A stretch of 64,000 nt of DNA from positions 1-64,000 of the forward strand of contig JAECRG010000002.1 of NCBI GenBank assembly GCA_015999875.1, read 5' to 3'. The notes beneath the pieces are model-generated. The model made no database searches. It was not told where the DNA came from and was given only the letters and a program-made list of their open reading frames with translations. Below are positions 25,223-29,784 of this stretch, piece after piece; the stretch's first letter is position 1, and every line of letters starts with the position of its first letter. Made by a program: the position numbers and the translations under genes. The stretch is from Candidatus Saccharimonadota bacterium. GTDB taxonomy: Bacteria; Patescibacteriota; Saccharimonadia; Saccharimonadales; Saccharimonadaceae.

Positions 25223-26011
25223 ATGCCCACGGCATTTCTCGTAGCATTTGTGGCTGCGGCTGTGATCTTGAGTGTGGTATTTCTGAGCGCAAAGTGGCGT
25301 AGCCGCTACGATGTGATAGATGTGGCGTGGGGCATGACGTTTGTAGTGATTGCAATTACTACGTATTTTGGCTTACAACAAAGTGGATCGCTTCAACTGC
25401 TGCTACTAGTACTTGTGAGTATCTGGGGTATTCGATTATCTTGGCACATCTACCAGAGGTATAGTCGCTCGCACGAAGAAGATCATCGCTACAGGCAATT
25501 GCGCAAAGATTACAGTAAGAAAAAGGGTGGCGTAGTATGGAATATGTACGTAAAAGTGTATCTCGTGCAAGCCGTACTGGCTGTCATAGTGTCGACCCCG
25601 GTGATTATTGTGATGGGAAGCGAGTCTACGAGTATCGGTATGTTGGCTATTGTCGGAGCCGTAGTGTGGGCTATTGGCTTCTTCTTCGAAGCTGTTGGTG
25701 ACTACCAACTTGGTCGATTTGTCACTAATCCTTCAAACAAAGGCAAGCTTATGACTGCTGGGCTGTGGCGTTACACCAGGCATCCTAATTACTTTGGCGA
25801 GCTCACTCAGTGGTGGGGGATATACATTATTGCATGGTCGGTAGAGTTTGGCTGGGCCGGACTTATCGGGCCATTGGTTATCACCTGGCTGCTTGTGTTT
25901 ATCTCGGGCGTACCGATGACGGAGCGTCATTTCCGTGGTCGTCCAGGCTGGGACGAATACAAGAGGAGTACGAGCAAGTTAATCCCGACGCTACCAAAGA
26001 CACGCGATTGA
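25223..26011 (+). CDS. DUF1295 family membrane protein (steroid 5-alpha-reductase-like)
   Basis: A 262-residue integral membrane protein with about seven helices. The C-terminal part has the DUF1295/ICMT-like signature GLWRYTRHPNYFGELTQWWGIY, followed by TERHFRGRPGWDEYKRSTSKLIP. Such proteins are related to NAD(P)H-dependent steroid reductases and isoprenylcysteine methyltransferases; the substrate in bacteria is mostly unknown, probably a lipid. The start is uncertain: ATG at 25223 one base after the VKOR stop, or ATG at 25205 within VKOR. Last gene of the ftsZ-to-DUF1295 run. Confidence 0.8.
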   Translation: MPTAFLVAFVAAAVILSVVFLSAKWRSRYDVIDVAWGMTFVVIAITTYFGLQQSGSLQLLLLVLVSIWGIRLSWHIYQRYSRSHEEDHRYRQLRKDYSKKKGGVVWNMYVKVYLVQAVLAVIVSTPVIIVMGSESTSIGMLAIVGAVVWAIGFFFEAVGDYQLGRFVTNPSNKGKLMTAGLWRYTRHPNYFGELTQWWGIYIIAWSVEFGWAGLIGPLVITWLLVFISGVPMTERHFRGRPGWDEYKRSTSKLIPTLPKTRD

Positions 26012-26036
26012 ACCATACGGTAAAAAATGCTACAGT
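26008..26036 (+). promoter_or_regulatory. Promoter of the tag-ileS leader
   Basis: -35 TTGAAC (26008-26013), 17-base spacer, -10 TACAGT (26031-26036). Its -35 overlaps the stop codon of the DUF1295 gene. Confidence 0.55.
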
Positions 26037-26042
26037 ATAGAT

Positions 26043-26230
26043 AAGACGTTTGAGTGGCTATCAACCACAAGTCGTGGGAAGAACAGAGCAATCCTAGTAG
26101 AACCTGCCGCGCACGCTGCGACAAAGCGAACAACTAAGCGCTAAAAGAATCACTTCTTTTGGAAGTCAGATGGTAACACCCGTAAATGGGCTCTGACATT
26201 CGAAAGAGGTGATTTTTATTTTAAGAAAGG
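26043..26230 (+). promoter_or_regulatory. T-box-like leader with isoleucine specifier, upstream of tag-ileS
   Basis: The leader resembles an ultrashort stem I T-box. A short stem gtgg (26054-26057) / ccac (26065-26068) presents the loop CTATCAA, containing the Ile codon ATC at 26060-26062. A 3' element fits a T-box antiterminator: helix gtcaga (26165-26170) / tctgac (26192-26197), an eight-base bulge starting TGGT, and an inner helix ccc / ggg with loop gtaaat. TGGT can pair with the ACCA end of tRNA-Ile. Outer arms 26148-26159 and 26203-26214 make a long hairpin followed by tttttatttt. The regulatory switch (termination or Shine-Dalgarno masking) is not decided. Confidence 0.72.
26148..26222 (+). 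terminator. Long leader hairpin with T tract
   Basis: Twelve pairs (aatcacttcttt / aaagaggtgatt, one G-U) enclose the T-box-like bulge structure and precede a T-rich run. It could act as a conditional terminator before tag. Confidence 0.55.
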
Positions 26231-26239
26231 ATGATCTGT

Positions 26240-26797
26240 ATGCGATGTAGTTGGGCTGAATCAAGTGATGAGATGCGCGCGTACCACGACCAGGAGTGGG
26301 GTGTGCCTGTTCGCGATGACCAAAGGCTTTTCGAGTTTCTCGTACTCGAAGGCGCTCAAGCCGGACTGTCGTGGGCTACGATCCTTGGCAGGCGAGAAGG
26401 CTACCGAGCGGCATTTCATGACTTTTCTATCGATGCAGTCGCAGCCATGACCGACGATGAGCTAGAAGCACTCCGCTCAGATCAGAGAGTTGTCCGTAAT
26501 CGTCTCAAGATATATGGCGCTCGCAAAAATGCGCTCGCTGCGCAAGCTGCAATTCGCACACACGGGTCACTTGTTAAGTACTTGTGGAGTTTTGTCTCCG
26601 ACGAGTCGAGCCACGAGCGGCAATCGATAGAGGCAGTGCCGGCCACAACAGAGATTTCCGATGCAATGAGCAAAGCTCTCAAAAAAGATGGCTTCACATT
26701 TGTCGGTAGTACAATCTGCTACGCGTTTATGCAGGCAACAGGAATGGTAAATGATCACGTAACAACATGTTTTCGATACAAGGAGATACAACAATGA
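26240..26797 (+). CDS. tag: DNA-3-methyladenine glycosylase I
   Basis: A 185-residue base-excision repair enzyme removing 3-methyladenine. N-terminal MRCSWAESSDEMRAYHDQEWGVP matches Tag, with zinc ligands C3 and H16; the other two ligands are in NDHVTTCF at the C-terminus. The HhH core (FEFLVLEGAQAGLSWATIL) and FVGSTICYAFMQATG are also characteristic. I chose ATG 26240 because AAAGG lies 9 bases upstream; the ATG at 26231 is too close. It sits behind the Ile T-box leader and overlaps ileS by ATGA, an unusual operon partner for a tRNA synthetase. Confidence 0.93.
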   Translation: MRCSWAESSDEMRAYHDQEWGVPVRDDQRLFEFLVLEGAQAGLSWATILGRREGYRAAFHDFSIDAVAAMTDDELEALRSDQRVVRNRLKIYGARKNALAAQAAIRTHGSLVKYLWSFVSDESSHERQSIEAVPATTEISDAMSKALKKDGFTFVGSTICYAFMQATGMVNDHVTTCFRYKEIQQ

Positions 26798-29784
26798 AAT
26801 TTAAAGCAAACACTAGACGTCGTGCACTTGAATACGAAAAGGCACTTGTCGAACAATGGAAGCAAAACAAGACATTCGAAAAGTCGGTCGAGCAGCGGAC
26901 TGCAGACAATGCCTATGTGTTTTATGACGGCCCTCCATTTATCACTGGAGTGCCGCATCATGGTACTCTTCTGAGTTCTATTATCAAAGATGCTGTTCCG
27001 CGCTATTGGGCGATGAAGGGCAAGAGAGTCGAGCGTGTTTGGGGTTGGGATAGTCATGGCCTCCCCGCAGAAAACTTCGTAGAAAAACAGCTCGGTATTA
27101 CCGATCGTCGTGACATCGGCACAAAAGTAAGTCTCGAGAAATACGTCACTACTGCGCGCGATTCGATGGTTGCAAATAGTGAAACATGGGAAGGTGTCAT
27201 CGACCGCATTGGACGCTGGGTGGACTTCAAGGGCGCGTACAGAACTATGGATAAGAATTACATGGAGAGTGTATGGTGGGCATTCAAAACTTTGTACGAA
27301 AAGGGCAAAATATACGAAGGTTACAAAGTGCTGATGTACGACACGAAATTTGCGACACCTGTATCTAAAAACGAAGTGACAATGGACAATGATGCATATC
27401 AAACCGTCACAGATCCTAGCCTTTACGTGAGATTCAAGGTTGACCACAATGAACTCATAAAAAAGCACCCTATCACATATGCTGATCTTCCTGACGATCT
27501 AAATATTTCTCTCTTGGCTTGGACGACAACACCGTGGACGCTACCTGCCAATATGGCGCTTGCGGTGAGTTCTGAGATGACGTACTGTTTTGTGAAACTC
27601 AATGGCGAATTGCTTATCATGGCAAAAGAATCTCTAGAGAGAGTACTTATAGACGAAAAGAAACAACCACTAACCGATTACGAAATTATTAAAGAGGTGT
27701 CTGGAAAAGACTTGAAACGAGTCTCGTATGAACAGCCGGTCATCGAGACTTTCTCGGCTAGTATTAGGATGAGCAACACCTATCAAGTGACAACCGCTGA
27801 CTTCGTCACAGCCGATAGTGGTACTGGAATAGTGCACATCGCACCGGCCTACGGAGAGGATGATTATGCTTTGAAACAAGATCTTCAGAGTAATGCGATT
27901 GATATAGATGACGTGTTGGATGAAAACGGATTCTACCGAAAAGACGTTGCAGATGCTCTGTATTCATTTATGCCATGGCGCGATAATACAGCACCGCTAG
28001 AATGCTGGGAGGCAAACAAAGATATCGCCAAAGGACTAGTGAAGGCCGGTATTGCTTGGAAGATTGAGTATATTCAGCACGAGTACCCATTCAACCCACG
28101 AAGCAAGCAGCGTATCATGTATCGCACAGTGCCATCATGGTTTTTCGATGTACAAGATCAAAAGCAGGAGATGTTTACTCAGAATACCGAAGTCATCAAT
28201 TGGTTCCCAGAGCACCTGAAGCACGGTCGTTTTGAAAAGAATATTGAGCAAGCTCCTGACTGGAACTTAAGTCGTAATCGATTCTGGGCAACTGCGTTAC
28301 CTGTATGGAAGGGAACGGACGCGAGCGGCGTAGAGCATATGAAAGTGATCGGAAGCTATGCTGAGCTGAAAGAGCTAAGCGGTGTCGAGCTAGAAGATTA
28401 CCATCGCCCATGGATCGATGATGTCACTTTTGATATAGATGGTGTTCATTTCAAGCGCATCGAAAATGTGTTTGATGGCTGGTTTGAAAGTGGTAGTATG
28501 CCATTTGCACAATTTCATTATCCATTCGAAAATAAAGCTAAGTTCGAACAAAATTTCCCAGGTGACTTCATATCCGAATACGTCGCACAGGTGCGTGCAT
28601 GGTTCTATTATGTACATACTGTAAATGTAGGGCTGTTTGGCAAAGCTGCGTTCAAAAACGTCATTACGACAGGCACGTTAGCCGGGAACGATGGTCGCAA
28701 GATGAGTAAAAGCTTAGGGAACTACACTGATCCGAATGAATTGATGGATAAGTTCAGTGCAGATTCATTAAGGTTTGTACTACTTTCATCACCACTGCTC
28801 AACGGAGAAGATTTCAGCCTGAATGACAAAGACGTTGGAGACGTTGCCCGCAAGCTCAGTATGGTTTGGAATATGTATGACTTTTTTACGATGTACGCAG
28901 AAGTTGATGGCTGGGAATTCGATGGTGACCTGTCTGATCCAACAGAAAGTCTACAGAACCCGCTCGACCAGTGGATTGTCAGTCGTGTTCATCAGCTTGC
29001 CCTAGAGGTTGAAAAAAATATGGACACATACGATATTCCGGGTGCCGTGAAGCCGATTCTACCGTTTATCGAAGATGCAAGTAACTGGTATGTGCGTCGC
29101 AGTCGCCGCCGATTCTGGAAAAGCGAAGACGATGGAGACAAAAACAACGCATATCGAACACTTCACTATGTATTAGTCCAGCTTAGCCAGATCTTAGCGC
29201 CATTTACACCATTTTTGGCAGAAGAGCTCTACCAGAAACTTACTGGTGGAGAGAGTGTACATTTGCTAGATTGGCCGACAGCAGGACACGTTAATGAGCT
29301 GGTCGTAGGTGAAATGGAAACGGTACGTGACTATGTTAATCAAGCGCTCAGTCTGCGTGCAAAGGAACGCATTAAGATTCGTCAGCCACTTGCGAGCGTC
29401 ACGGTACCCACGGCCACTGATTTTGTCGATCAAGACGCAATTTTAGAAGAAGAGTTGAACGTGAAGCGAGTGATAACAAGCTCAAAACATGGTACGGATG
29501 TATTACTTGATTTCGAAATTACTCCCGAGCTCAAACGTGAAGGCTTGATGCGCGAAGTGATTCGCCATGTGCAGTCAGCCCGTAAAAACGCAGGCCTCAA
29601 CGTCGATGATCGCATCAAGCTAGGACTACGAGCGACAGGTACTCTCGCAGAAGCGATTGATGAGCACCGAGATGCCATAGCCACTGAGACACTTGCGTCG
29701 ACAATTGGCACTGAAGAGTATAGCTATGCCGCGACCGTAAAAGTCGAAGATGAAGAGCTGGTTGTTACACTCGAAAAAGCATAA
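26794..29784 (+). CDS. ileS: Isoleucyl-tRNA synthetase, type 2
   Basis: A 996-residue class I synthetase charging tRNA-Ile. HIGH motif as PHHGT (about 54-58), WGWDSHGLPAE, the CP1 editing domain (TTPWTLPANMALAV; DSGTGIVHIAPAYGEDDY), and KMSKS at residues 636-640 (GRKMSKSLGN). The sequence pattern (DFKGAYRTMDKNYMESVWWAF, YVRRSRRRFWKS) is that of the eukaryotic-like type 2 enzyme, a form associated with natural mupirocin resistance. The start is the ATG overlapping the tag stop, with AAGGAG 8 bases upstream; a frame extension to 26767 is rejected. Confidence 0.96.
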   Translation: MKFKANTRRRALEYEKALVEQWKQNKTFEKSVEQRTADNAYVFYDGPPFITGVPHHGTLLSSIIKDAVPRYWAMKGKRVERVWGWDSHGLPAENFVEKQLGITDRRDIGTKVSLEKYVTTARDSMVANSETWEGVIDRIGRWVDFKGAYRTMDKNYMESVWWAFKTLYEKGKIYEGYKVLMYDTKFATPVSKNEVTMDNDAYQTVTDPSLYVRFKVDHNELIKKHPITYADLPDDLNISLLAWTTTPWTLPANMALAVSSEMTYCFVKLNGELLIMAKESLERVLIDEKKQPLTDYEIIKEVSGKDLKRVSYEQPVIETFSASIRMSNTYQVTTADFVTADSGTGIVHIAPAYGEDDYALKQDLQSNAIDIDDVLDENGFYRKDVADALYSFMPWRDNTAPLECWEANKDIAKGLVKAGIAWKIEYIQHEYPFNPRSKQRIMYRTVPSWFFDVQDQKQEMFTQNTEVINWFPEHLKHGRFEKNIEQAPDWNLSRNRFWATALPVWKGTDASGVEHMKVIGSYAELKELSGVELEDYHRPWIDDVTFDIDGVHFKRIENVFDGWFESGSMPFAQFHYPFENKAKFEQNFPGDFISEYVAQVRAWFYYVHTVNVGLFGKAAFKNVITTGTLAGNDGRKMSKSLGNYTDPNELMDKFSADSLRFVLLSSPLLNGEDFSLNDKDVGDVARKLSMVWNMYDFFTMYAEVDGWEFDGDLSDPTESLQNPLDQWIVSRVHQLALEVEKNMDTYDIPGAVKPILPFIEDASNWYVRRSRRRFWKSEDDGDKNNAYRTLHYVLVQLSQILAPFTPFLAEELYQKLTGGESVHLLDWPTAGHVNELVVGEMETVRDYVNQALSLRAKERIKIRQPLASVTVPTATDFVDQDAILEEELNVKRVITSSKHGTDVLLDFEITPELKREGLMREVIRHVQSARKNAGLNVDDRIKLGLRATGTLAEAIDEHRDAIATETLASTIGTEEYSYAATVKVEDEELVVTLEKA

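Follow-up and report, generated by a model that had tools for sequence, protein, structure and literature searches.

A putative ultrashort tRNA-Ile T-box with an enclosing terminator in the tag-ileS leader of a Saccharibacteria genome

In the 1.04 Mb Saccharibacteria genome carrying the 64,000-nucleotide stretch of DNA that was analysed here (the window), a leader of about 200 nucleotides, which separates tag-ileS from a DUF1295 gene with a stop at 26011, contains a complete T-box with an ultrashort Stem I (26045–26222). All helices, the specifier, the bulge and the terminator of this leader are established by its sequence and by covariation, and there is little doubt that the element is a T-box for tRNA-Ile. 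It probably controls tag-ileS by transcription attenuation, a reading in which tRNA binding, the response to its charging state and the act of switching are inferred, without expression or binding data. Related elements precede ileS, valS, thrS, aspS, tyrS and lysS in Patescibacteria.

Organization of the tag-ileS leader

The leader starts approximately 30 nucleotides 3' of the stop of the DUF1295 gene, and its surroundings contain the following features:

26008 to 26036, plus strand: probable promoter, TTGAAC and TACAGT spaced by 17 nucleotides with TG before the second hexamer (inferred by eye, 8 of 12 consensus positions)
26226 to 26231, plus strand: Shine-Dalgarno-like AAAGGA for tag (inferred by reading the sequence)
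26240 to 26797, plus strand: tag, DNA-3-methyladenine glycosylase (Pfam PF03352), with an alternative start at 26231
26794 to 29784, plus strand: ileS, isoleucyl-tRNA synthetase, whose start overlaps the tag stop (ATGA)

The promoter was missed by a scan that required 9 of 12 consensus positions, and the predicted start of the transcript at about 26043 is inferred from sequence alone. A TATAAT-like hexamer is found upstream in 82 of 93 relatives, as judged with a loose pattern and without a control. The fold of the 205-nucleotide leader has a z-score of –3.98 relative to shuffled sequences.

In relatives whose loci were fetched, the T-box is located before ileS. Among loci L031 to L110, ileS follows directly in 43, while in 30 other sequence intervenes, in most cases one unrelated gene. 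Translations read by eye include several GNAT-like acetyltransferases and NUDIX-like, ArsC/Spx-like and GDSL-like proteins, with tag occupying this position in the window and in one further locus (L052). The interval between leader and ileS thus resembles a cargo slot that might place genes under tRNA-Ile control, a possibility that we mention with reserve.

The leader itself is composed of the following elements:

26045 to 26073, plus strand: Stem I, with lower helix GAC (26045–26047) / GTC (26071–26073), a K-turn-like internal loop and specifier stem GTGG (26054–26057) / CCAC (26065–26068)
26060 to 26062, plus strand: specifier codon ATC (Ile), followed by A26063
26074 to 26107, plus strand: Stem II, GTGGG (26074–26078) / CCTGC (26103–26107), with S-turn strands GAAGAA and AGTAGAA (26096–26102)
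26108 to 26128, plus strand: Stem IIA/B pseudoknot, 26108–26110 with 26118–26120 and 26114–26117 with 26125–26128
26136 to 26142, plus strand: linker AAGCGCT from the pseudoknot to Stem III
26141 to 26162, plus strand: Stem III, CTAAAAGAA / TTCTTTTGG, with a UCAC loop
26165 to 26197, plus strand: antiterminator (T-box), A1 GTCAGA (26165–26170) / TCTGAC (26192–26197) and A2 CCC (26179–26181) / GGG (26188–26190)
26171 to 26178, plus strand: T-box bulge UGGUAACA, whose UGGU is complementary to the ACCA of tRNA-Ile
26145 to 26222, plus strand: intrinsic terminator, with a lower stem (26145–26163 / 26199–26217) around the antiterminator and the U-tract TTTTTATTTT (26213–26222)

The specifier hairpin GTGG-CTATCAA-CCAC (26054–26068) consists of a stem of four base-pairs and a loop of seven nucleotides and meets the class III criterion of a short Stem I without IDTM that carries the specifier in its apical loop. 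The codon ATC is complementary to the anticodon GAU of the tRNA-Ile of relatives, including a genome of the same genus (G035). The specifier stem is 99.5% paired with two-sided changes, and the lower helix is found in 72 of 93 leaders compared to 39 (maximum 49) in a control where the 3' strands were dealt out. In L008, L012, L025, L033, L045 and others, the K-turn-like loop that separates the lower helix from the specifier stem is replaced by an inserted hairpin, which varies in sequence.

All five pairs of Stem II show two-sided changes and the S-turn strand AGUAGAA is conserved in the aligned Saccharibacteria leaders and also found in Actinobacterial ileS leaders. Four Saccharibacteria leaders (L038, L041, L045 and L088) have lost the whole of Stem II while keeping Stem I, the pseudoknot and the T-box, and constitute natural tests of the requirement for this stem. 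Within the pseudoknot, the first helix is 97.4% paired, whereas the second reaches 98% in its outer pair and 72% in the other three, again with two-sided changes. The linker that follows contains four invariant columns (A89, G90, G92 and C93) of unknown role; its counterpart in Tsukamurella reads AAGAGC. Stem III is 94.2% paired, with two-sided changes in five of nine pairs.

Towards the 3' end, a helix-bulge-helix of the form GTCAGA-TGGTAACA-CCC..GGG-C-TCTGAC, which constitutes the antiterminator, is at the same time the tip of a long terminator hairpin. Its helices A1 and A2 are 100% paired, with two-sided changes in eight of nine pairs. In the bulge, UGG, A and the final C are invariant in all 98 leaders; the window contains UGGUAAC where most leaders carry UGGUACC, the canonical T-box bulge. 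The terminator stem shows two-sided changes in 14 of 17 listed pairs, and Stem III and the terminator stem are mutually exclusive, as is evident from sequence and covariation. When prefixes of increasing length are folded, Stem III forms first, followed by Stem III together with the antiterminator (–16.5 kcal/mol), and once the last approximately 20 nucleotides emerge Stem III is displaced by the terminator, which is the minimum-free-energy fold of the 3' domain (–33.1 kcal/mol). The AAAGGA ribosome site of tag is located downstream of this hairpin and outside of it. A terminator scan of the leader returned nothing because its loop limit of 8 nucleotides excludes a terminator that is tipped by a T-box.

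Of the 95 Saccharibacteria leaders in which A1 is recognisable, 93 contain a nested terminator with U-tract, a count that is heuristic and lacks a shuffled control. Outside Saccharibacteria, the same heuristic identifies 32 nested terminators, 14 separate hairpins directly after the antiterminator and 14 leaders with neither. The separate hairpins, as in L175, L177, L183, L184, L190 and other non-Saccharibacteria loci, show almost no overlap with the antiterminator.

These results bear on an earlier sequence-only reading, which had described a stem presenting ATC in a CTATCAA loop and a downstream helix-bulge-helix containing TGGT, and had interpreted both as an ultrashort T-box-like riboswitch with an isoleucine specifier. 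Both structures were found, with ATC at 26060–26062 and TGGT at 26171–26174, and the interpretation held, with binding and switching remaining inferred. The element is larger than described, and the lower part of Stem I, Stem II with its S-turn, the IIA/B pseudoknot, Stem III and the terminator were added. A lack of covariation, or of conservation of ATC and TGGT in homologous leaders, would have refuted the proposal; both were examined and neither is the case.

Conservation, distribution and codon agreement

At a loose threshold of E ≤ 10, blastn matches to the leader were obtained in 190 of 198 genomes of the family, many with E < 1e-10. These matches and synthetase loci from named genomes provided a set of 98 distinct leaders, whose alignment, as proposed in the sequence-only reading, shows ATC in 96 of the 96 that cover the site and UGG in 98 of 98. 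Pairs were counted in 52 distinct aligned leaders over an anatomy comprising Stem I, Stem II, both IIA/B helices, A1 and A2. In this set, 95.2% of cells are paired and 20 of 25 pairs show two-sided changes, with 253 two-sided cells compared to 71 in shuffles and a covariation score of 0.524 compared to at most 0.118 in slid versions.

The Rfam search that had also been proposed did not detect the element: the leader gave nothing relevant at either the gathering score or E ≤ 10, the T-box model RF00230 found no match in its own genome, where the gathering score of 93 bits was not met, and 20 of the matched Patescibacteria loci were without Rfam match at gathering score. We used two covariance models, R1 of the leader itself and R2, a broader model without the terminator, built from Patescibacteria leaders only. 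R1 matched 171 of 244 genomes of the class (E ≤ 0.01) and 97 of 286 genomes of the phylum (E ≤ 0.1), whereas R2 matched 132 of these 286 genomes at E ≤ 0.01, with up to seven matches per genome. Across the phylum, the R2 alignment is 97.8% paired with two-sided changes in 19 of 21 pairs, although, being fitted to the structure, it is biased towards it. Beyond what the sequence-only reading had recognised, the element is no single oddity but has relatives across the phylum and a counterpart in its own genome, which is located outside the window:

24011 to 24143 of contig C2 (G000), minus strand: second T-box (L298), before thrS

This thrS T-box displays the specifier ACC in an atypical loop, a UGGA matching U73 of the own tRNA-Thr and a terminator of its own. 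Lower-scoring matches in the phylum without adjoining synthetase (e.g. L183, L195, L216 and L221) might be false. Four R2 matches (L320, L334, L343 and L347) contain CGC (Arg) in their loop with a next open reading frame that is not a synthetase, and could be either arginine T-boxes or false matches. In L350, a GAC specifier and UGGC precede an aspartate aminotransferase-like gene, which may hint at a control of amino-acid metabolism beyond synthetases.

The identity of the downstream genes allows a comparison with the codon in the loop. A scan of the genes behind 50 leaders against NCBIfam assigned a synthetase to all but two, one of which belongs to an aspartate-aminotransferase-like family, while the other (L313) was not assigned. 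For 48 leaders, short loop strings were picked by hand, and in thrS leaders with odd loops (L181, L224 and L298) the specifier was read by eye. A cognate specifier was found in 43 of the 48 scored leaders, comprising eight amino-acid classes, compared to 18.9 ± 2.9 and at most 30 in 20,000 shuffles of the labels; L187, L330, L331, L338 and L346 disagree. In the phylum set, ATC is found in 12 of 12 IleS leaders, GTC in most ValS leaders, TAC in TyrS, ACC or ACT in ThrS and AAG in LysS leaders. Leaders of non-discriminating AspS, an enzyme that charges both tRNA-Asp and tRNA-Asn, contain GAC or AAC.

A test that does not depend on the codon concerns the fourth base of UGGN, which in T-boxes pairs with the discriminator base of the tRNA. 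In the own genome, tRNA-Thr ends in UCCA, tRNA-Asp and tRNA-Asn in GCCA and tRNA-Val and tRNA-Tyr in ACCA. Correspondingly, ThrS leaders contain UGGA (7 of 7; U73), AspS leaders mostly UGGC (G73) and IleS leaders UGGU. The own tRNA-Ile gene was found in its genome by neither a pattern nor a family search and might be hidden in an assembly gap, with contig C1 starting inside a 23S gene; we have instead used relatives, whose tRNA-Ile ends in ACCA with A73 pairing with the UGGU of the window. UGGN thus follows the discriminator base and meets this criterion, assuming that the discriminator bases are the same throughout the phylum. In L167 and L218 the first-match T-box letters fell outside the antiterminator, and inspection by eye located UGGU. 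Among the 98 Saccharibacteria Ile leaders, 13 depart from UGGU, with nine UGGA and four UGGC, and in two of the UGGA genomes (G058 and G126) tRNA-Ile carries A73, indicating that the fourth pair is not always formed.

Proposed mechanism and alternative explanations

The presence of a U-tract after the hairpin and the location of the tag ribosome site beyond it lead us to infer transcription attenuation. In the proposed mechanism, the Stem I loop would present AUC to the anticodon GAU, with the S-turn of Stem II bracing the duplex. With the polymerase at about 26200–26210, the RNA is predicted to hold Stem III and the antiterminator. The ACCA end of uncharged tRNA-Ile would then pair with UGGU of the bulge and fix both structures, permitting the polymerase to continue into tag-ileS. 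With charged tRNA-Ile, or without any, strand 26199–26217 would displace Stem III and extend the antiterminator stem downward into the long terminator hairpin, and transcription would stop at the ensuing U-tract. Unlike in known T-boxes, this nested terminator leaves the antiterminator paired, and base-pair competition alone does not explain how tRNA would block it. We propose a kinetic block, where tRNA and Stem III stacked on A1 would stop strand exchange. In a bolder reading, which at this stage could equally turn out right or wrong, ultrashort T-boxes would attenuate the transcription of several synthetase genes in Patescibacteria, with the antiterminator folded in both states and bound tRNA keeping Stem III stacked, thereby blocking strand exchange into the enclosing terminator rather than competing for antiterminator strands.

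Alternatively, the leader could be a translational T-box as in Actinobacteria, whose 3' hairpin hides the ribosome site. In support of this view, the ultrashort T-boxes covered in a review are translational (PMC7583486) and the 3' strand of the hairpin contains the Shine-Dalgarno-like GAGGUGAU. However, this sequence (26207–26214) lies too far upstream of the tag start (26240), a free AAAGGA follows the hairpin, and the U-tract after the hairpin is found in 93 of 95 leaders, including members without Shine-Dalgarno-like sequence in the lower stem. We thus regard translational control as unlikely.

Still less plausible is a leader of T-box descent that no longer senses tRNA and functions as a plain terminator. 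In favour of this view, the alternative fold is less stable than the terminator by about 17 kcal/mol. A relic would decay, however, whereas here ATC, the S-turn, UGG and the pseudoknot are conserved while stems covary. The short distance of about 30 nucleotides to the DUF1295 stop might also suggest chance hairpins or a terminator of this upstream gene, an explanation that conservation before ileS across the class, covariation and the agreement between specifier and gene in other synthetases leave with almost no room. Transcription attenuation by a T-box for tRNA-Ile remains our preferred interpretation.

Relation to known T-box classes

In the literature searched, we found no report of a T-box in Saccharibacteria, Patescibacteria, TM7 or the candidate phyla radiation, in line with the sequence-only reading, which was aware of none in this lineage; preprints were not covered and priority is unproven. 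Riboswitches come up in a single Patescibacteria paper, which considers them merely as potential tools. The sensor would thus represent a known class in a lineage without found report, and the platform a variant that is undescribed in the searched literature. Two circumstances probably explain why previous T-box surveys have missed the Patescibacteria members: the Rfam model presupposes a long Stem I, and TBDB applied its class II model to Actinobacteria genomes and to those class I hits in which Stem I is truncated (PMC7778990). Almost nothing is known about gene regulation in Patescibacteria, which live as epibionts and have reduced genomes, and T-boxes would provide them with a starvation response. 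According to a review, transcriptional T-boxes generally need a long Stem I; its elbow contact accelerates the capture of tRNA ahead of polymerase arrival at the terminator. An ultrashort Stem I, by the same account, is found in translational T-boxes (PMC7583486). If ultrashort T-boxes with terminators indeed form a large population, this rule would be broken and become testable.

As homology controls, we used the ileS leaders of two Actinobacteria and one member of the Bacillota from plasmid records. RF00230 assigned 146.3 bits to the Bacillota leader but only 31.9 and 23.2 bits to the Actinobacterial ones, below its cut-off of 93, and Rfam is thus nearly blind to the ultrashort class. Conversely, R2 matched the leaders of Tsukamurella (L352) and Microbacterium (L353) with 52.1 and 44.3 bits (E = 5e-11 and 3e-9), in alignments that span Stem I through the pseudoknot in both and in Tsukamurella extend through the antiterminator. 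Since R2 was built from Patescibacteria only, the sensing half is homologous to that of the ultrashort class, which is termed Class III (PMC10482949). The resemblance to Actinobacterial ileS T-boxes claimed in the sequence-only reading therefore held for this half, whereas the platform contains a terminator and is probably not translational.

With Class III ileS T-boxes of Actinobacteria such as Nocardia farcinica and Mycobacterium, the leader shares the AUC in a short apical loop, the lack of a long Stem I, the AGUAGAA S-turn of Stem II, the IIA/B pseudoknot and the UGGNACC antiterminator bulge. It differs in that known members act on translation (PMC7583486, PMC10482949), whereas the window leader has a U-tract terminator around its antiterminator; moreover, in many members Stem I holds an extra hairpin on the 5' side of the specifier stem, and the codons read by Patescibacteria members further include those for Val, Thr, Asp/Asn, Tyr and Lys. 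With a U-tract terminator and a free ribosome site, the Class III criterion of a translational platform that sequesters the Shine-Dalgarno sequence is not met, and the T-box of the window is likely a platform variant instead of a standard member. With transcriptional Class I T-boxes (RF00230; Bacillus ileS and tyrS), it has in common the specifier, Stem II, IIA/B, Stem III, the bulge and a terminator with U-tract, but it lacks the long Stem I and the double T-loop elbow contact, described as essential in transcriptional T-boxes (PMC7583486), and its terminator encloses the antiterminator instead of taking it apart. Class II glyQS T-boxes are also transcriptional, but combine a long Stem I with the absence of a Stem II domain (PMC10482949), which is the reverse of the organization found in the window leader.
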